This document shows positions 2,950 through 20,230 of a stretch of 20,597 nt of DNA, piece by piece. Position numbers and translations under genes: made by a program. Source of the DNA: a virus; IMG/VR virus record IMGVR_UViG_3300025137_000387, positions 1 to 20,597 of that record; one strand, given 5' to 3'. The stretch's first letter is position 1. Every line of letters starts with the position of its first letter. The notes under the pieces are model-generated. The model was not told where the DNA came from and did no database searches. It saw nothing but the letters and a program-made list of their open reading frames with translations.

Positions 2950-3776
2950 AGTATTTTTCCTAAAGTAGTGTGAATTACTTCCGTGTTTTCTTTTCCGATT
3001 GCTTCCTCAGAATAAGTTACTAAATCCATAAGTTCAACGTTTTGTAGAAGTTGTTCTGCATTTTCGTTGACCGCTTGAATATATTTATACTTACCTTCTA
3101 GTGGAATTGCATCATATATATCGAAAACTGTTCCATATTGTTCCATCAATTGTACTGCGCGTTTCGGACCGACTCCTGGTACTCCAGGGACGTTGTCCCC
3201 TTTATCGCCAGTAAGACATTTGAAAGAGATATAATCTTCAATCTCAAAATCATAATGTTCGTCCCAGTTATGTACTGTAGTTTCTTTTCTAGTTACAGTA
3301 CTAAACCTAGAAACAGTATCACTTATTAATAAATCCCAGTCTCTATCAGAAGATATCAACCAGCAGTCATCATATTTTATATTTTGTGTTATATATGCAG
3401 CAATATCATCTGCTTCCACTCCTTTAAAGTGAAATACAGGATATTTTGTTCTAATTAGTGTTAGTGTATCACTAAATTCTGCCATAAACATTTCGAACTC
3501 TTTAGCTTCTTGCTCAGTTTGTTCTGCAAATCTTTCTTTACGATTTGCTTTGTACGCAGGGTATATCTCTTTTCTGTAAGAGCTACCCCCATCTGCACAT
3601 ACTATAATAGTACCTGCATTGTAAGATTTTGCTAGACTTTCGATTGTTCTAATGTAGTCATATTTAAAATCTAATATGTTTTGATGTTTCCATCTAAAAG
3701 CTACATTTAATCCATCAACTATCAGCAAGTTCCCAATCGGAGCTTGGGCTCCAAGGTTCGCAATTGTAGTCGCCAT
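2946..3776 (-). CDS. 5'-3' exonuclease / flap endonuclease (T5 D15-like)
   Basis: The 276-residue protein belongs to the 5' nuclease family (DNA polymerase I N-terminal domain, T5 D15, T4 RNase H, FEN). It removes RNA primers and 5' flaps. Metal-binding acidic residues are visible in order: Asp21 (LIVDGLN), Asp62 (VCADGG) followed by the arch motif YRKEIYPAYKANRK, Glu121/Asp123/Asp124 (VEADD), Asp144/Asp146 (SSDRD) and Asp191/Asp194 (GDKGDN), then a helix-three-turn-helix (VPGVGPKRAVQLMEQYG). The family A polymerase in this window lacks its own 5' nuclease domain, so this protein is its natural partner. The annotated ATG gives a 62-base overlap with the resolvase gene. Its AGGAG site is about 13 bases upstream, longer than ideal, so a later start is possible, but any start must precede Asp21. 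Confidence 0.94.
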   Translation of the reverse strand: MATTIANLGAQAPIGNLLIVDGLNVAFRWKHQNILDFKYDYIRTIESLAKSYNAGTIIVCADGGSSYRKEIYPAYKANRKERFAEQTEQEAKEFEMFMAEFSDTLTLIRTKYPVFHFKGVEADDIAAYITQNIKYDDCWLISSDRDWDLLISDTVSRFSTVTRKETTVHNWDEHYDFEIEDYISFKCLTGDKGDNVPGVPGVGPKRAVQLMEQYGTVFDIYDAIPLEGKYKYIQAVNENAEQLLQNVELMDLVTYSEEAIGKENTEVIHTTLGKIL

Positions 3777-4206
3777 TTGTAAATTTTATCTCCTCTTTTT
3801 CTAGCCAGTGTTCTGCTAATAAAATATATGCACCCAGCCAGGCAATATGTATATATTTTAATGTGTTTGTTGGTTTTCTAACTGTTACTGCAAAGAACTT
3901 TCCATAGTTCTCTCTAAATATAAGTAACGGTTCCTGTTCCATATCTTGTGATTGTTTACAAAGTTTACTCCACCATTTGTATAAATTATTTGTTTTTGAA
4001 GTATATATTTTTGAGTTAAATCCACTATCTTTATAGAACTTAACTTCTACACAAAATAAATTATGTTTACCAGGTACTCTTAAGTCTCCTTTTATTTTTC
4101 CACTACCCGAACCTGGTGTTTGCCCCCATTTCTCTTCTGTCATACGACCAAGTAGAGACATTACTTGTTGTTCTCCTCTATTTCCTTTCTGTCTTGAGTT
4201 AACCAT
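3715..4206 (-). CDS. PD-(D/E)XK nuclease, probable Holliday-junction resolvase
   Basis: The 163-residue protein has the signature of archaeal-Hjc-type and phage resolvases: a basic start with KGNRGEQQV (Glu12), a GSGSGKIKGDLRV loop (Asp41) and the catalytic strand CVEVKFYK (Glu54-x-Lys56). This E...D...ExK pattern is the PD-(D/E)XK metal-dependent nuclease fold. It would cut recombination or replication branches during phage DNA processing. Its place between the SbcC-like gene and the flap nuclease matches T5 D14, a putative Holliday-junction resolvase, apart from the inserted cytochrome cassette. The start ATG overlaps the upstream gene by 8 bases. The resolvase role is inferred from motif and position. 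A general DNA-end nuclease cannot be excluded. Confidence 0.8.
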   Translation of the reverse strand: MVNSRQKGNRGEQQVMSLLGRMTEEKWGQTPGSGSGKIKGDLRVPGKHNLFCVEVKFYKDSGFNSKIYTSKTNNLYKWWSKLCKQSQDMEQEPLLIFRENYGKFFAVTVRKPTNTLKYIHIAWLGAYILLAEHWLEKEEIKFTNGDYNCEPWSPSSDWELADS

Positions 4207-4423
4207 TAATTCCTATTCCTATTATTAAAAATGCCGCTATCATTCCTCCAAATACTATAAGCTGTACTATAGAAGGAACTACTACAAAAAACTTTAAAAC
4301 ATCAAACTTTCCTGTCATAAAGAAGTCTCCCCCATTTTGCCATTCATTAACTTCCTCTGGAGTTGCTTCTCTTATTGCATTTAATTTTAATTCTAACTGC
4401 GTTTGATATTCTACTTGTTTCAA
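4199..4423 (-). CDS. Small C-terminal single-pass membrane protein, cytochrome cassette
   Basis: The 74-residue protein has a polar, acidic N-terminal half (residues 1-40) and one long hydrophobic segment near residues 45-71 (rich in V, I, F, G) that ends almost at the C-terminus. That is the layout of a tail-anchored or single-pass inner-membrane protein. I do not recognise a family. It starts at TTG, whose bases overlap the cytochrome c stop codon (TTGA), with GAGG about 10 bases upstream. The next gene, the resolvase, starts inside its last codons. This tight coupling to the cytochrome suggests it is a small partner or stabilising subunit of the same membrane complex. That is inference from position only. 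Confidence 0.72.
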   Translation of the reverse strand: MKQVEYQTQLELKLNAIREATPEEVNEWQNGGDFFMTGKFDVLKFFVVVPSIVQLIVFGGMIAAFLIIGIGING

Positions 4424-4863
4424 TTTAGTTCAACCTCAATAAATTTACCTAACATGTCTATTTCTGCATCAGATAACTTTCCAGCCTGAGCCCACATTGT
4501 AGAACTCATTGAACCTACTTCACCTCTATTTCTATAGATGTTAAGTCTACTAGCTATGTAATCAGCTGATTGACCCGCAAGCTTAGGAAAGACTGCCATA
4601 CCTTGACCTTCTGCACCATGACAAGCTGCACACCCACTCCATAGACCTCTGATAGGACTAAATTCGTCTAAGTTTGCAAGTTCTCGTTTTGCTCTAAGTT
4701 GTTCTACAACTGTGCCATTCTTAGCTACATACTGTTTGTAACACTCTCCTGTGCAACTACGAATATTTCGATAGCCTTTGACTTCTATATCAGGATATAT
4801 CATAGTAGCAAAAAATACTACAAAAATGAAACATGCCATTATTACCATTCCTAATTCTTTCAC
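4420..4863 (-). CDS. Membrane-anchored class I c-type cytochrome
   Basis: The protein has an N-terminal hydrophobic anchor (about residues 4-23, MVIMACFIFVVFFATMIY), a linker with a CTGEC cysteine pair (Cys37/Cys41), and a roughly 75-residue class I cytochrome c domain. The haem attachment site is CAACH (Cys78, Cys81, His82). It is followed by FPKLAGQSADYIASRL, typical of the c4/c553-like group, and by methionines at 119 and 123 (MSSTM) that can supply the sixth iron ligand before the final helix (LSDAEIDML). It should face the periplasm, receive haem from the host Ccm system and carry single electrons. I chose the GTG at 4863 because it overlaps the preceding stop as GTGA and has AGAGAGG upstream. 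A GTG at 4881 would add six residues. No quinol- or oxygen-reducing domain is present, so the partners must be host proteins or cassette neighbours. Confidence 0.93.
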   Translation of the reverse strand: MKELGMVIMACFIFVVFFATMIYPDIEVKGYRNIRSCTGECYKQYVAKNGTVVEQLRAKRELANLDEFSPIRGLWSGCAACHGAEGQGMAVFPKLAGQSADYIASRLNIYRNRGEVGSMSSTMWAQAGKLSDAEIDMLGKFIEVELN

Positions 4864-5033
4864 TTTACCTCTCTTAGCCACTTTCTATAAGAAACTGGAT
4901 TTTCTGTTTCTGTTAAATACTCTTTATATTTCTCTTTGTTTTCTTTTGATGTAGTCATAGCAGTAACCCATCCAGTAGATGAGTCTTGCCATCTCTTAGA
5001 GTTACCCATGTAATCATGCCATAATTGCTTCAT
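4860..5033 (-). CDS. Small soluble hypothetical protein (57 aa), cytochrome cassette
   Basis: A 57-residue reading frame fills the gap between the two larger cassette genes. It starts at an ATG overlapping the preceding stop (ATGA) and ends in a TGA overlapping the cytochrome GTG start. Four-base overlaps at both ends are strong evidence that it is translated. The protein begins MKQLWHDYMG, has no hydrophobic segment, and is rich in Trp (4), Lys, Glu and Tyr, with a charged helical second half (KENKEKYKEYL). No family is recognised. A cytoplasmic or membrane-surface helper to the cassette is possible, but that is only inferred from the chaining. Confidence 0.68.
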   Translation of the reverse strand: MKQLWHDYMGNSKRWQDSSTGWVTAMTTSKENKEKYKEYLTETENPVSYRKWLREVK

Positions 5034-5422
5034 GCTTCTTTATCTATATCCCATTTTACTACATTAGGTTTAGTTTTCTTCTGCCAAAACTTCCAAGCAC
5101 TTTCTTGGTTTCTCCAGTCAGAGTGCCATCTAGCTCCGTTTCTTTCTGCATCTTTAAATATTGCATTAGTAAATCCTATAGGTATTAAAACTGCTAAGTG
5201 AAATACTATACTTGTTACTGTATTATATCCATACCAACCCATATAATAGGTTGCTACTGCACCAAAGTAAACACTCCACATGGTAAATAAAACCAATGTA
5301 AAGTAAAATTGTAGACTTGGGTCTGGTATATATCGTAGAGGGTTGTATCTATTGTCCATAATAACTCTCCAACTGTCTACAATATACAGTAAAAATCTTC
5401 TATGTCTTGCTGGTTTATTCAT
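5030..5422 (-). CDS. Two-pass membrane protein, cytochrome cassette
   Basis: The 130-residue protein has a basic N-terminus, two hydrophobic segments (about residues 39-64 and 68-91) joined by a short GWYGYN turn, and a charged, Trp-rich C-terminal tail (residues 92-130). With a positive N-terminus and tail it most likely forms a hairpin with both ends in the cytoplasm. A histidine lies in the second segment (VFHLAVLIP), but there is no paired histidine pattern that clearly marks a b-type cytochrome. I do not recognise a family. It overlaps the SbcC-like stop by 8 bases and ends ATGA into the 57-aa gene. An internal ATG at 5359 (MDNRYNPLRY) has a better ribosome site (GGAGAG, about 8 bases) and may be the real start. 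Confidence 0.75.
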   Translation of the reverse strand: MNKPARHRRFLLYIVDSWRVIMDNRYNPLRYIPDPSLQFYFTLVLFTMWSVYFGAVATYYMGWYGYNTVTSIVFHLAVLIPIGFTNAIFKDAERNGARWHSDWRNQESAWKFWQKKTKPNVVKWDIDKEA

Positions 5423-7232
5423 TTAAATAACTCATTTCTCCTTCTTTTATTACTTCTATCTTTTCTAGTAGAGGGTGTGTCCAACCGTGAGATACTATAT
5501 ATGTGTTTAGATTGTCTTCTTTCAATAGTATTTCTACTAATCTCTCTTTACCTTGTTCATCAAGAACATTAGTAACTTCGTCTAAAAATAATATGTTGAT
5601 TTGAGACTTAGAAATACTACTCATTAACTTACGAATTGCAAGCAGTGTTGCAGTATTTACTCTTGCGAGTTCTCCTGCACTTAGTGCTAGGATATCTACT
5701 GATTTTCCATTGTCTTCTACAACAACATTAAGTTTATCATTTAGAACTACAAACTCTAAACTGAATCTACCATCAGATAGTTCTGCTAGATATTCATTTG
5801 TAAGTTCTTCTAGGTCTTTAACTAGATTCTCAATTTTGTAAGCAAGCAGTCCATTTGTACTAAATGCTTTTTTAAGTATTTCTATACTTGAGAATTTGTC
5901 TTGAATCTTATCTAGTTCTTCTGTAAGTTCATCAAATTCAGTTTTAAAATCATCAATTTGTTCTGTGATTATTCCAATACGAGTATTATGTCTTTCTACA
6001 TTATTATTATGGTCTATTGTATTTCTTAATTCTTTTTCGTACTCGCTCTTGTGTCCTGCTAAAATGCCGATTCTTTTTCTAATCTCATCTCCATTTGGAA
6101 TATTACTTGTTAGGTTATGATCAATACTTCTGTAGAGTTCTTCCCACTTTCTAATTCCTTCTTTCGCTTCTTCGTGTAGCGTATTGCTCTCTTGCGCCTC
6201 TTCAAGCTTCTCTTTATCTTTTTCGGAAAATGTTTCACAACCTATCTTTCTTTCTTGATGCTCTGCCATTTTTTCCTTGATGAAGTCAACGTCTATATCT
6301 TCTCCACATGTAGGACATACATGGTCTTCAGTTTCTAACAGTTCTCGGTATTTATTAACCATGCTTTGTTCATGCATTTTTTCGGCTTTCCAACTACCAA
6401 GCCCAGTAAGATAAGGGGCGGTATCAATAAGTTCAGGATTACTTGATAATACTCTTTTATATTCATGTAAATCTATGTGTCCAAGCTCCTTTTTGTATTG
6501 ATTATTTTGATTAATTTTTTTGATATTCTCACTGATATTTTGAAATTCTATTTGTAAAGAACGGAAAGTCTTTTCATCTTCTTCCGAATATTTTGGTAAT
6601 TCCATTTTCGAAAGTAGTGATGTATCTTCCAATTTATTGTCTTTTAACCATTTTTCAACAGTTGCAATTTTCCCATCTATACGTGAAAGTTGCCCTCCAA
6701 CATCTCTAGAAAGCTCTCTAAATAGTTCGAAGAAAGATACATACTTATCAAGCTGTAATAAATCAATCAAAAATTTCTTACGATTTGTGTCTGTAGCCGT
6801 AAGGAACTGTAAACTTGCGTTAGTGTTTTGGTATACAATTTGCGAAAATGTCTTGAAATCAATACCAATTATCTGTTCTAATGTTTTATAGGTATTTGTA
6901 GCTGTATGACTAGAAATATCCTCACCATTTTTAAGTAATTTCACTTTTATACTTGCACGACGAGCAACATCAATATGGTACTTATCTTCGTTTACAGTAA
7001 AGTCAAGACATATATCATAACCATTGTTTACTTGACGATTAGCTATGTCAGCTTTCTTTATACCTTTGGAATTCTTATTAAAAATAACTTCCTCTAAAAT
7101 TAGAGGTATAGACGACTTACCTGCACCATTTGTGCCAATAAGTTGTGTAAGGGTGTTACTTTGCAAATCTATGACATTGTTACTGCCATATGAAAAGCAG
7201 TTATTCCATGTTAGCTTTTCTAGAGTTATCAC
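5415..7232 (-). CDS. sbcC: SbcC / T4 gp46-like recombination ATPase subunit
   Basis: The 605-residue protein is the ATPase half of an Mre11-Rad50-type nuclease. Visible elements are Walker A GTNGAGKS (residues 33-40), a Q-loop near Gln135 (IVYQNTNASL), a long predicted coiled coil interrupted by the zinc-hook CPTCG (Cys306, Cys309), a second coiled arm, the ABC signature LSAGELARVN (about 521), Walker B ILFLDEV (about 549) and a switch histidine (IVSHGW). It works with the SbcD-like protein encoded just upstream to open and trim DNA ends in recombination-dependent replication. At 605 residues it is short for bacterial SbcC (about 1050) and near T4 gp46 or T5 D12. It overlaps sbcD by 32 bases and the cytochrome cassette by 8. 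Confidence 0.94.
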   Translation of the reverse strand: MITLEKLTWNNCFSYGSNNVIDLQSNTLTQLIGTNGAGKSSIPLILEEVIFNKNSKGIKKADIANRQVNNGYDICLDFTVNEDKYHIDVARRASIKVKLLKNGEDISSHTATNTYKTLEQIIGIDFKTFSQIVYQNTNASLQFLTATDTNRKKFLIDLLQLDKYVSFFELFRELSRDVGGQLSRIDGKIATVEKWLKDNKLEDTSLLSKMELPKYSEEDEKTFRSLQIEFQNISENIKKINQNNQYKKELGHIDLHEYKRVLSSNPELIDTAPYLTGLGSWKAEKMHEQSMVNKYRELLETEDHVCPTCGEDIDVDFIKEKMAEHQERKIGCETFSEKDKEKLEEAQESNTLHEEAKEGIRKWEELYRSIDHNLTSNIPNGDEIRKRIGILAGHKSEYEKELRNTIDHNNNVERHNTRIGIITEQIDDFKTEFDELTEELDKIQDKFSSIEILKKAFSTNGLLAYKIENLVKDLEELTNEYLAELSDGRFSLEFVVLNDKLNVVVEDNGKSVDILALSAGELARVNTATLLAIRKLMSSISKSQINILFLDEVTNVLDEQGKERLVEILLKEDNLNTYIVSHGWTHPLLEKIEVIKEGEMSYLNE

Positions 7233-8175
7233 TAAATACTCCTATAATTTTTTTAACTTTTGTTTCATCTAATTCGAGAATATACGATAGGTATTCTGCT
7301 AATTCTTCCTCCATCGTCATCTCTTTGTCCAATATGAGAGTGGCTTCTGTCTTTCGTTTTATTACTTTCTTATCCAATAGGTCAGAATTTTTGACCCCGC
7401 TCAAGTCTGATACATCACCCTCTACTTCATAAATAGTATGGTGCCACTCTGTCTGTATCATTTCTTCTGAGCTTGATACTGTTTTTCTTATTAGTTGAGG
7501 CAAATTAAATTCATGCCACGTCCAAGACCAATCGTCTTCTATTAGTATGTATCCTGTCTTTACTACATTTCTATGAAAACTTGTAGTCATAGGACTGCCG
7601 GGATAAACAATATTTCTTTGAGTATTCTCGTGAGCATGTAAATCTCCTGCAAATACAATATCAAACTTATCAAATCTTTCTAAATCTACTTCTGGTACTA
7701 CATGAGGTGGTATCTCTCCACGAACATGAGTAAATAGTATAGGGGAATCAATAGATTCTATACTACCTTTCTTATGTAAGTCGGCATATGGAAGAATAGT
7801 CCATACAGGTTCTACCTCTGGTCCCCATTCTCCAATCCATGTTTCGTCCACTACTTCTACTAGTGGATTAATGCTTTCTGTAACTTTTTTTAAATTTGTA
7901 AAAAATGTTTTATGTTTCCTAGTTGCTTCATGATTACCATCAAAGATAATCGTACGCACGTTAACAGTTTTTACAAAATCAAAATACAGTGTTAGTTCGT
8001 CCATAGAAGGGACTCGATCAAACAAGTCCCCACCTATGATATGCAGATGTACATCATTCTTTTCGACTGTCATTTCAAGCTGTTCGAAAAACAACTTATA
8101 ACGAGAGCACGCCCAAGCAATAGGAACATTTTTCTGTCCTAATTTGATATGCCAATCTGCAGTAAATAAAATCAC
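7201..8175 (-). CDS. sbcD: SbcD / T4 gp47-like recombination nuclease subunit
   Basis: The 324-residue protein is the Mre11-type metallophosphoesterase partner of the SbcC-like ATPase. Motifs appear in order: I ADWHI (Asp7, His9), II GGDLFDR (Asp50), III DGNHEA (Asn81, His82) and the later metal histidines in AGDLHAHEN with the following PGSP turn (about 178-196). These make a two-manganese nuclease centre acting on DNA ends and hairpins. The C-terminal third is the capping and SbcC-contact region and is less conserved. The start is a GTG that shares one base with the upstream stop (TAGTG), and no strong ribosome site is visible, so translation probably depends on the upstream gene. T5 D13 is the positional equivalent. 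Confidence 0.93.
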   Translation of the reverse strand: MILFTADWHIKLGQKNVPIAWACSRYKLFFEQLEMTVEKNDVHLHIIGGDLFDRVPSMDELTLYFDFVKTVNVRTIIFDGNHEATRKHKTFFTNLKKVTESINPLVEVVDETWIGEWGPEVEPVWTILPYADLHKKGSIESIDSPILFTHVRGEIPPHVVPEVDLERFDKFDIVFAGDLHAHENTQRNIVYPGSPMTTSFHRNVVKTGYILIEDDWSWTWHEFNLPQLIRKTVSSSEEMIQTEWHHTIYEVEGDVSDLSGVKNSDLLDKKVIKRKTEATLILDKEMTMEEELAEYLSYILELDETKVKKIIGVFSDNSRKANME

Positions 8176-13308: not shown

Positions 13309-14163
13309 TTATTTTTCTTTGTACAATGACTCCCTTAACTTTCGAACTGATACCTGGCTAAGAGCTCCAGCATCTCCCAAGTCTGAGGGTATTCTTACAT
13401 TGTAATATTTTAATTCTACAGCGTCACAAAGTTCGATTACTTTTTCTACTGCCCCTTGCCCAGCATCGTCTGGGTCAAAGAAAATGTCTATTTGTTCAAC
13501 TCCTCTCATTTTAAGAAGCTGTAATTTGTCTGTTGTAATGTTAGATATTCCAAAACAACATAGTGAATTGGGTAGTCCTTTATCATGTAAGTTTATCACA
13601 TCAAAGATTCCTTCTACTAGTAGAACTCTTCCTTTGATTGGAGTTACATTTGCTGGAAATATAGGTAACTTTACTCTAGGTGGGTGAAAGATATACTTAG
13701 GCTGGTCTTTTATGTGTGTATTCATTCTAAGCCTACCATTAAAGGCTACTATCTTTCCTGTTATATCTCTTATAGGAAAATTAATCCTATCTTTAAATGG
13801 AGAATCTATACTTACAAATGCTTCAAAGTTTTTGAAGGTTTCGGACTTTATATTTCTTTCTGTGCCTATGTATGGCATTGCCGAATTAGGCATTTGAAGT
13901 CCTATAGATTCAGACCTTTTACGGTCTATTGTTTGTTTTAATTTTTCTCTTTTTATATCCAAGTAGTTACTAGGCTTATCATATAACTTGAATATGTTTC
14001 CCTTATATCCACAAGAAAAACAATTATATACTCCTGTAATCTTATCTATTCTCATACTCGGATTAGAGTCATCATGCTCTGGATTGAGACATGATACTAT
14101 AAAGTCAGCAGGGGACATCTTAAAAGGTATCTTTTCTTCAACTAATAGTTCTTCTACTGTCAT
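13309..14163 (-). CDS. DnaG-type primase (zinc finger plus TOPRIM)
   Basis: The 284-residue protein lays down RNA primers. The N-terminal zinc finger has ligands Cys25, His30, Cys48 and Cys51 (CLNPEH ... CFSC). After a basic linker, a TOPRIM domain shows LLVEGIFDV (Glu184, Asp188) and FFDPDDAG (Asp230, Asp232), the metal-binding residues. There is no fused helicase, unlike T7 gp4. The separate DnaB-like protein encoded upstream supplies unwinding. The length is about half that of bacterial DnaG, which also has a helicase-binding C-terminus. The ATG overlaps the deformylase stop (ATGA), and the gene ends in TAA within the flank of the polymerase promoter. Confidence 0.92.
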   Translation of the reverse strand: MTVEELLVEEKIPFKMSPADFIVSCLNPEHDDSNPSMRIDKITGVYNCFSCGYKGNIFKLYDKPSNYLDIKREKLKQTIDRKRSESIGLQMPNSAMPYIGTERNIKSETFKNFEAFVSIDSPFKDRINFPIRDITGKIVAFNGRLRMNTHIKDQPKYIFHPPRVKLPIFPANVTPIKGRVLLVEGIFDVINLHDKGLPNSLCCFGISNITTDKLQLLKMRGVEQIDIFFDPDDAGQGAVEKVIELCDAVELKYYNVRIPSDLGDAGALSQVSVRKLRESLYKEK

Positions 14164-14603
14164 TCTTGGTACACCTTTCCTCTATCTACTATTAGGAAAC
14201 CTTGTAGATGGTCAAACTCGTGTTGTATTACTCTTGCATCAAATCCAGTGAACTTCTGTACCATAGGTTCATCATTTTCATCTGTAAATTCTACTACTAC
14301 ACTATGTGCGCGTCTTACTTTTACATGCGCTCCTGGGCAACTTAAACAGCCTTCCCAACCTACTTTAGTGTAGCTACTTCTATCTTTAATTTTTGGGTTT
14401 ATAAAAACCTGTGGTGGGCTTCCTGCTAAAAATACTCTTTCAGGAACTCCTATCTGTATTGCAGATATGCCCACACCTTCGTGTTCTTTCATAGCTTCCT
14501 GCAGTTGATATATTGTATCTTCCAACTCTTCTCTAGCATGAATACTATCATTTACCCACTCTTTTGATACTTGCCTAAGTATCTTTCTATCTGTTACTAT
14601 CAT
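14160..14603 (-). CDS. def: Peptide deformylase
   Basis: The 147-residue enzyme removes the formyl group from the first methionine of new proteins. All three family motifs are visible: GVGISAIQIG (residues 43-52, Gln50), EGCLSCP (84-90, Cys86 metal ligand) and HEFDH (128-132, with His128 and His132 as ligands and Glu129 catalytic). The length is slightly below bacterial deformylases (about 165-170), with a trimmed C-terminus as in other phage versions. Phage deformylases are known from marine viruses and are usually treated as host-derived auxiliary genes that keep protein maturation running. It overlaps both neighbours by ATGA, so it is fully embedded in the replication operon. Confidence 0.95.
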   Translation of the reverse strand: MIVTDRKILRQVSKEWVNDSIHAREELEDTIYQLQEAMKEHEGVGISAIQIGVPERVFLAGSPPQVFINPKIKDRSSYTKVGWEGCLSCPGAHVKVRRAHSVVVEFTDENDEPMVQKFTGFDARVIQHEFDHLQGFLIVDRGKVYQE

Positions 14604-18009: not shown

Positions 18010-18765
18010 CTAATTTTCCTTAATTAAATGTTTTATATTATCGTAAATTTTAATACCCATATCTTGGGCTTTATTAGTTTTTGAAGACTCTATACCACTC
18101 TCGTTTAATAGAATCGTTACTTTACTTGTAAGACTGTCCTTTGTCTCAAATCCATAGTTTTGTAAAACTTTCTGAGCTGCAGCCTTACTAGGGTAGCTCT
18201 TTAGTTTACCTGTTATACAAACCACACCTTTAGTGTAGTTGACTTTAGGTTTCTCACAAGAGAAAGAAAAAGGCAGGTCATTGTACTCATTTGGATAAAA
18301 AATATTTTCTAACCAGTTGGTTAGGTTCGACGCCGCTTTAGGACCGAGACCGCTATCTATACATTTTTGTAAGGTTATCTCTGATATATTTGAGACCTTT
18401 GTAGTCAATTTATTAGAAGCGCTCCGCCCTATCAGCGGTATCGAAAAAGCGGGAAGAAGTGTTGTTAAGTCTGCTGATTTAGAATTTTCTATCTCAGCAA
18501 ACAACTTAGCCCCTAACCTTTCCGAATCCAAAAGAGAAATAATCTCCTCTTCAGTGAAAGAATAGACTTCATGATAGTCCTGAAGTTCTAACTTTTCAAT
18601 TGTTGCTTTTCCCAAACCTTTAATACTTAAAGACTTGGCAAAGTGTTCTATCTTTTTAGAACTCTGAGCAGGACAATCTACATTGCGACAAAATAATTGG
18701 TCATTCACAGTATCGAGCATTGTGTTACAAGCTGGACAATGTGTAGGTATAATTATTTCTTGCAT
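18010..18765 (-). CDS. NAD+-dependent DNA ligase, C-terminal half (zinc finger, HhH, BRCT)
   Basis: The 251-residue protein corresponds to the DNA-binding half of bacterial LigA. It begins at the zinc finger (CPAC near residues 8-11, second pair in CRNVDC), continues with helix-hairpin-helix repeats (IKGLGKATIEKL and GLGPKAASNL) and ends with a BRCT domain (about 173-251, including VVCITGKL). The adenylating half is on a separate gene upstream, after two intervening genes. The break falls in the linker that precedes 'PTHCP' in E. coli LigA. It has its own promoter and a ribosome site (GAGAGA, 8 bases from the ATG). It should assemble with the N-terminal half to form the working ligase, as the two subunits of T5 ligase are thought to do. 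Confidence 0.92.
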   Translation of the reverse strand: MQEIIIPTHCPACNTMLDTVNDQLFCRNVDCPAQSSKKIEHFAKSLSIKGLGKATIEKLELQDYHEVYSFTEEEIISLLDSERLGAKLFAEIENSKSADLTTLLPAFSIPLIGRSASNKLTTKVSNISEITLQKCIDSGLGPKAASNLTNWLENIFYPNEYNDLPFSFSCEKPKVNYTKGVVCITGKLKSYPSKAAAQKVLQNYGFETKDSLTSKVTILLNESGIESSKTNKAQDMGIKIYDNIKHLIKEN

Positions 18766-19191: not shown

Positions 19192-19298
19192 TTTTCTTCT
19201 TTGAGCTTTTCATTGAGTTCTTCTATTCTTTTATATAATCTATAAATTTGTTCTGTTTGTTCTGCTACTTGCTTCTTGAGCATTTCTACTTCTGTCAA
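19188..19298 (-). CDS. 36-residue coiled-coil peptide
   Basis: A tiny frame begins at a TTG overlapping the stop of the ligase N-terminal gene (TTGA), with AAGGAGAG about 6 bases upstream, the best ribosome site in this cluster, and ends ATGA into the GIY-YIG gene. The peptide (starting MTEVEMLKKQVAEQTEQIYR) is one long charged heptad helix: Val3/Met6/Val11/Ile18/Leu21/Ile25/Leu28/Leu32 fall on one face, so it should form a coiled coil. Function unknown. It could dimerise or tether a neighbour's product. Too short for most gene finders, but site and overlaps support it. Confidence 0.6.
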   Translation of the reverse strand: MTEVEMLKKQVAEQTEQIYRLYKRIEELNEKLKEEK

Positions 19299-20230
19299 TC
19301 TACTCTCCTTAGTACTTGCGGTATTATCTTACCTGCTCTAATTACTTCTATCTTACAACCTAGTTCTAAGTTGAGAGCTTCTATTATTGACTTGTTATGT
19401 AGTGTAGCTTTTGATACCAATGCTCCTTCTATGTCTATTGGGTCGAAGTGGGCAACTGGCGATACTGCGCCTGATTTGCCTACTTGCCATGTAACTGACT
19501 GGAGTATAGTGACTACACCTGTTTCCTGTTTCTTCAGAGCAAAGGCTCCTCTAGGGTGATGGCTAGTATACCCGTAGTTATCGAACCTATCGTTCTTTGC
19601 TACACGGAATACAGAACCATCTTTAGGAAAGTTAGTATAGTCACTACATATGGCAGTATCAAATCCAAGATTCGCTAAGAACCTCATATCCGATACGTAG
19701 TTGTCTGTTATGTATGGAGAAAGCCCATGTGCTACAAAGTATAAATCTCTTGTAGCAAACTCTTGAGAGCTTTTTAATCCAAGCGCACCTGCTGCATAGT
19801 TTCTTGCATTAGGTATGCTTTTAGGAGCTACTACTTCTCCACTAATTTGTAGTACTCCTTCGTAATCTATTTGTTGTGGCACTAGATGTCTAATATTAAA
19901 AGTAATATCAAGTCCTTCAATGCCATCTCCTCTTGTTAGTGCTTTCTGAAATTCTCCACCACCATAAATCATGCTTATTGCAGCACCATCTAATTTAGCT
20001 GTAGTAATAAAATCATCACTGCCCCAATCTGGAGCAGTGTCGATTCCGCTTATCACTTTCTGGAGGGAAAACAATGGGAACATATGCCTGTATCTACGCT
20101 CATAAGAACTCTTATAGCCGATACTCTCAGCAGTTGCCATTGTTGAAAGATAATCAAAAACCTCATCACTCATAATGGGGGAACCACTATAGTACGCTTC
20201 TTTCGCTGTCTTGATAAGATTTTCTAACAT
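19295..20230 (-). CDS. ligA: NAD+-dependent DNA ligase, N-terminal half (adenylation and OB fold)
   Basis: The 311-residue protein seals nicks using NAD+. The start shows a shortened domain Ia (AYYSGSPIMSDEVFDYL, about 12-28) that binds the nicotinamide end of NAD+. The nucleotidyltransferase domain has the adenylated lysine in AKLDGAA (Lys79), TRGDGIEGLDIT (99-110), SGEVV (130-134), DGSVFRV (204-210, arginine where most ligases have lysine) and PRGAFALKK (226-234). The OB fold follows (WQVGKSGAVSPVA to AGKIIPQVL). It ends cleanly after the OB fold. The zinc finger, HhH and BRCT parts are on the gene at 18010-18765. A promoter ends 6 bases before the ATG with no ribosome site, so the message should be leaderless. 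Confidence 0.93.
   Translation of the reverse strand: MLENLIKTAKEAYYSGSPIMSDEVFDYLSTMATAESIGYKSSYERRYRHMFPLFSLQKVISGIDTAPDWGSDDFITTAKLDGAAISMIYGGGEFQKALTRGDGIEGLDITFNIRHLVPQQIDYEGVLQISGEVVAPKSIPNARNYAAGALGLKSSQEFATRDLYFVAHGLSPYITDNYVSDMRFLANLGFDTAICSDYTNFPKDGSVFRVAKNDRFDNYGYTSHHPRGAFALKKQETGVVTILQSVTWQVGKSGAVSPVAHFDPIDIEGALVSKATLHNKSIIEALNLELGCKIEVIRAGKIIPQVLRRVD

Follow-up and report, generated by a model that had tools for sequence, protein, structure and literature searches.

A membrane-tethered, respiratory-type cytochrome c of marine phages and its recurrent membrane-protein neighbours

Why should a phage carry a cytochrome c among its recombination genes? The question is raised by a linear virus record from a marine phage, 20,597 nucleotides (20.6 kb) in length, which was analysed whole and is called the window below. 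Because of its replication genes the window is taken to be part of a tailed phage: it specifies a T5-type DNA polymerase (approximately 44% identity to those of Proteus phages), SbcCD and a ribonucleotide reductase, and pieces of a primase, a helicase and a ligase were recognised from their translations. No tRNA genes were found in the window. The ligase-like protein is spread over two ORFs, 19295–20230 and 18010–18765 (identified by translation only), with another ORF between them, which is how a split ligase would look. The translation of 14160–14603, which lies between methyltransferase-like and primase-like genes, resembles peptide deformylase.

Four small ORFs, which a sequence-only reading of this DNA had described as a cassette, sit where that reading placed them, and all are on the minus strand. 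The gene order on this strand is SbcC-like protein, tm2 (130 aa), a 57-aa protein, the cytochrome, tm1 (74 aa) and a resolvase, and each stop codon overlaps the next start along the chain. The features are as follows.

7201–8175, minus strand: SbcD-like subunit, context gene (PHROG 100, 4.2e-42)
5415–7232, minus strand: SbcC-like subunit, upstream context gene (PHROG 77, 1.4e-96)
5030–5422, minus strand: tm2, two-pass membrane protein of 130 aa (at least 275 relatives in viral contigs; distant cellular homologues)
4860–5033, minus strand: soluble protein of 57 aa, outside the conserved module (locus comparison)
4420–4863, minus strand: anchored class I (c4/c552-like) cytochrome c, 147 aa (Pfam, family alignment, PDB profile, Foldseek)
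4789–4854, minus strand: N-terminal membrane helix of the cytochrome, a predicted signal anchor (helix 4–32 of the AF2 model; sequence)
4738–4755, minus strand: CxxxCY motif, in a phage-specific stretch that separates the anchor from the haem domain (invariant in the alignment)
4618–4632, minus strand: haem-attachment motif CAACH, C84-A-A-C87-H88 in the numbering of a 153-aa product (CxxCH in 101/101)
4495–4497, minus strand: invariant M129 in STMW, the presumed distal haem ligand (MWxQA in 96/97)
4199–4423, minus strand: tm1, 74 aa, one C-terminal membrane helix (adjoins the cytochrome in 40/103)
3715–4206, minus strand: PDDEXK/RusA-like Holliday junction resolvase, downstream (Pfam PDDEXK_15, 1.2e-18; PHROG 244)

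The identification of a cytochrome c held up well: the gene is real and intact, its product is anchored, and the Pfam model Cytochrom_C reports it above the cut-off (2.8e-8). Two GTG codons could serve as its start. Since the relatives in the family alignment begin at M[KR]ELG.., the second (4863, giving 147 aa) is the likely one, not GTG 4881 (153 aa); this start gives a GTGA overlap between the cytochrome and the 57-aa gene, and at the other end the TTG start of tm1 overlaps the cytochrome stop. The basic N-terminus would leave the N-terminus inside the cell and the haem domain in the periplasm. In some relatives the N-terminus is shorter and might be cleaved.

Across 36 diverse aligned relatives, down to 47–55% identity, C84, C87, H88 and M129 are constant, as are C43, C47 and Y48 of the CxxxCY motif. 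Larger counts were made on 103 distinct cytochrome genes, near-copies being dropped only where the DNA of the cytochrome ORF was identical. CxxCH is kept in every one of the 101 that cover the site, CxxxCY in all 97 long rows, and MWxQA in all of these but one, which is cut by its own contig end; no decay of the haem site was seen. From these intact ligands, haem binding and redox activity are predicted. The AF2 model (pLDDT 86) matches c552, c554 and c4 structures with an rmsd of 1.3–2.2 Å over 65–75 columns (Foldseek). Thioalkalivibrio c546/556 is among the matches, at 43% identity across 72 columns, as are Vibrio c554, Pseudomonas nautica c552 and the c4 chain from the bc1-cbb3 supercomplex of P. 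aeruginosa (8smr); a profile search of the PDB likewise returned c552 and c4 cytochromes. With CxxCH, a distal Met and the class I fold the protein belongs to class I. It is no true c4, which has two tandem haem domains; it has a single CxxCH domain and is c4-like in sequence only. An assignment to the cbb3 subunits CcoO/CcoP was likewise rejected (CBB3 Pfam 25.4 bits, cut-off 27; NCBIfam ccoP 18.9, cut-off 179.95), and no COX1 that could serve as a CcoN partner turned up on 21 long phage records.

The gene is not confined to the window. A single-protein scan of viral contigs returned 64 cytochrome relatives and a profile-pattern scan 503, on T5-like as well as T4-like contigs; those of the T4-like kind, whose SbcC-like protein is 46% identical to that of OM43 phage Melnitz, bear both the cytochrome and tm1. 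A near-copy of the window locus occurs in a separate viral record (L001). No relative was detected in annotated phages (tblastn, E 0.01), and PHROGs gave no match for the cytochrome. A scan of bacterial genomes produced four MAG contigs of phage origin and a single distant cytochrome. The bins (Synechococcus, Planctomycetaceae, Sphingobacteriales) were discarded as a clue to the host, the binned copies being phage contigs. In approximately 750 proteobacterial genomes nearly all of the best matches span the haem domain only. A tree of haem domains (32 from phages, 28 cellular), built on a short alignment of 93 columns and on a sample from which the hosts may be absent, unites the phage sequences in one clade (support 100/96).

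Median pairwise dN/dS (Nei-Gojobori) is 0.31 for the cytochrome, falling to approximately 0.11 in the lowest pairs, and 0.22 for tm2, both medians being inflated by many distant pairs; on these sequence comparisons the cytochrome is under purifying selection. A gene with phage genes on both sides, present on approximately 500 viral contigs, under purifying selection and free of haem-site decay is more than a chance passenger, and it behaves as an auxiliary metabolic gene. That the locus might reflect misassembly, host contamination or a decaying passenger gene could be entertained while it was known from a single contig; the number of contigs, the flanking phage genes, the near-copy in L001, the purifying selection and the lack of decay refute this reading, to which we attach practically no probability.

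If the cytochrome is real, is the cassette? Here the sequence-only reading was right about two of the three companions. Both tm2 and tm1 recur with the cytochrome in other phages, at several unrelated positions and often directly adjacent, while the 57-aa gene does not: it lies between tm2 and the cytochrome only in near-copies of the window and in L066. Neither outcome that would have told against the cassette, small genes never seen with the cytochrome elsewhere or a cytochrome in decay, was observed. The direct neighbours of the 103 distinct cytochrome genes, which are not fully independent since loci were fetched via the cytochrome or tm2, are most often tm1 (40), glutaredoxin (31), nrdB (26) and tm2 (23), and more rarely sbcD (7), peroxiredoxin (2) and a ferritin-like gene (2). 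Within the locus, though not necessarily adjacent, tm1 is present in 58 of the 103. Tm2 is the partner found most often immediately upstream; the tm2-cytochrome pair follows sbcC, nrdB or polA in some loci and precedes sbcD in others.

The association is not obligatory. Many phages have tm2 and no cytochrome, one contig (L094) retains the tm2-tm1 pair with the cytochrome missing, and tm2 was not found on six long cytochrome-bearing contigs, most of them fragments. Weak relatives of tm2 occur in two phages of the Kyanoviridae, Melnitz and C48C1, and its distant homologues in bacterial chromosomes (L189–L198) are single small genes, often beside a gene for a short-chain dehydrogenase or an NAD(P)-binding protein; these dehydrogenase neighbours were considered as a clue to mechanism and yielded none. 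Neither tm1 nor tm2 belongs to a recognised family or fold. The tm2 model (pLDDT 82) matches nothing in the PDB or BFVD, a sequence search of the PDB gave nothing significant, and tm2 and its cellular homologues reach the cut-off of no Pfam or NCBIfam family. A likeness of tm2 to the N-terminal region of CcoP (NPL and then a membrane helix) was picked up by no Pfam model and was given up for that reason. Through their association with the cytochrome, two membrane proteins so far without function gain a recognised partner.

The recombination operon, which had been regarded as the defining setting, proved to be only one of several. Elsewhere the cytochrome follows nrdB and precedes glutaredoxin, precedes sbcD, follows polA or lies near T4-like gp46/47. 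Contigs L131 and L134 are 98–99% identical over approximately 8 kb around the site (94.6% further upstream). At the site itself (6298–6303 and 6297–6731, respectively) the difference between them is precisely the cytochrome gene, which lies between tm2 and sbcD; an AAATGA repeat marks the junction. The gene has therefore been gained or lost as a unit. Such precise gain or loss between close relatives shows that some settings allow phages to do without the cytochrome. Around the gene, nothing was recognised as bc1, an oxidase or any other gene of respiration, and COX1 was absent from 21 long phage records (the control was positive in 8 of 14 genomes).

The identities of the neighbouring glutaredoxin, AhpC/TSA peroxiredoxin and ferritin genes were confirmed. 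Peroxiredoxin is encoded, for instance, at L088:1445–1990, at L145:6671–7264 and upstream of tm2 in L134; in many relatives it is flanked by p208 and sbcD or immediately precedes tm2. A ferritin-like gene is directly downstream of the cytochrome in L035 (6469–6906), one of two contigs with this arrangement (the other is L033). In the window itself the profiles used detected neither peroxiredoxin nor glutaredoxin.

Among cytochromes of solved structure the closest are the c4, c552 and c554 proteins of proteobacteria (1h1o, Acidithiobacillus c4; 1etp and 8smr, Pseudomonas c4; 2zzs, Vibrio c554; 8yts, Thioalkalivibrio c546/556), which have the same haem fold, CxxCH and distal Met, at 31–43% identity over approximately 70 residues. 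The phage protein differs from these by its N-terminal anchor and separate clade, by having one haem domain against the two of c4, and by a segment of approximately 45 residues containing CxxxCY that falls outside the best matches in the sampled proteobacterial genomes. By this segment the protein departs from ordinary shuttle cytochromes, a hint of some additional function. A comparable layout is known from cy of Rhodobacter capsulatus and c552/CycM of Paracoccus and its relatives, in which a single class I haem domain behind an N-terminal signal anchor is tethered near bc1 and the oxidase. The architecture of the window cytochrome fits this pattern, whereas in searches its haem domain groups with the c4/c554 types.

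Cyanophages carry genes for the electron carriers plastocyanin and ferredoxin. These are likewise phage-borne carriers, soluble or tethered, that would plug into a host chain; the present gene differs in specifying a respiratory-type haem protein and in lying outside photosynthesis gene clusters. Respiratory genes reported from viruses include cbb3 oxidase reads (PMC3474794), soxD with cytochrome motifs (PMC8190135) and cydAB (PMC12043954), all of them oxidases or sulfur enzymes, whereas the phage cytochrome is a stand-alone carrier. One study states that its nitrogen-cycle phages showed neither cytochromes nor other electron carriers (PMC8115048).

What, then, might the protein do? We consider it about an even call that it is a phage electron carrier working, with membrane helpers, alongside the host respiratory chain, a function that we infer. 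The cytochrome would presumably be translated early, together with genes for replication and nucleotide metabolism, exported by the Sec pathway and loaded with haem by the cytochrome c maturation system of the host. Its N-terminal helix would tether it to the periplasmic face of the inner membrane, where it may shuttle electrons from bc1 or another quinol oxidoreductase to the host cytochrome c oxidase, and respiration and ATP supply would thereby be sustained through infection. Tm1 and tm2 would probably position the cytochrome or fit it to a host complex. In favour of this reading, the closest relatives of solved structure are electron-transfer cytochromes. Against it count the lack of a recognised respiratory gene nearby, the want of any recognised family or fold for tm1 and tm2, the phages that have tm2 and no cytochrome, the CxxxCY segment and the dispensability of the gene in some settings. 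With no haem-copper oxidase on the long phage records, maturation and redox partners must come from the host. We reasonably infer that such a protein feeds or redirects host respiration. A more ambitious version, which we think less likely than not, treats the tethered cytochrome c and two dedicated membrane partners as a mobile viral module that has reached unrelated marine phages and joins the aerobic respiratory chain of the host to retune it during infection, the CxxxCY segment being the phages' own element for docking or redox sensing.

The frequency of peroxiredoxin and glutaredoxin makes protection from peroxide the main rival. Together with these proteins and ferritin, the cytochrome might drain an over-reduced chain or feed a periplasmic peroxidase, shielding both the cell and the phage ribonucleotide reductase. 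Glutaredoxin adjoins the cytochrome in 31 of the 103 loci, but it is the usual companion of phage ribonucleotide reductases and may owe its position to the nrdAB operon. Peroxiredoxin is in the locus in 21 of 103, with several contexts placing it immediately beside the cytochrome or tm2, and on 10 of the 21 long records, and two contigs have the ferritin-like neighbour; against this, the window yielded neither enzyme and the cytochrome has no peroxidase motif. We judge this explanation unlikely.

The same tether, CxxxCY segment and pair of strongly conserved membrane partners could serve binding and not shuttling, in which case the phage cytochrome would compete with its host counterpart or jam a complex and so change the membrane potential, for example in timing lysis or slowing the host. 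A decoy is made less likely by a haem site that never decays: attachment motif and distal Met are fully retained across approximately 100 distinct genes, which favours redox activity, and we hold interference to be improbable. Lower still stands a membrane module for superinfection exclusion or anti-defence, with redox activity secondary. The sequence-only reading had offered exclusion as an alternative and nothing was found in its favour; tm2 and tm1 resemble such proteins in size only, and both can occur without the cytochrome. PADLOC gave no match of note, only a weak one (0.0054, JetD) to a tm1 relative, and the conserved haem protein would be left unexplained. We regard it as highly improbable.

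Known phage electron carriers mainly serve photosynthesis. As a kind they are familiar; a family of tethered respiratory-type cytochromes c would be new. The open literature searched contained no description of such a phage family with recurrent membrane neighbours, an absence that is not in itself proof of novelty. An intact stand-alone cytochrome c is present in hundreds of marine viral contigs and missing from PHROGs and the annotated phages searched. As a single gene with mutable haem ligands, it makes the respiration idea directly testable. Its recurrence in hundreds of ocean phage fragments, where genes for small membrane proteins or redox enzymes are its usual neighbours, suggests that ocean phages adjust host respiration during infection. 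If this is true, viruses would also adjust bacterial respiration in the ocean cells that they infect, and through it the use of oxygen and the flow of carbon.
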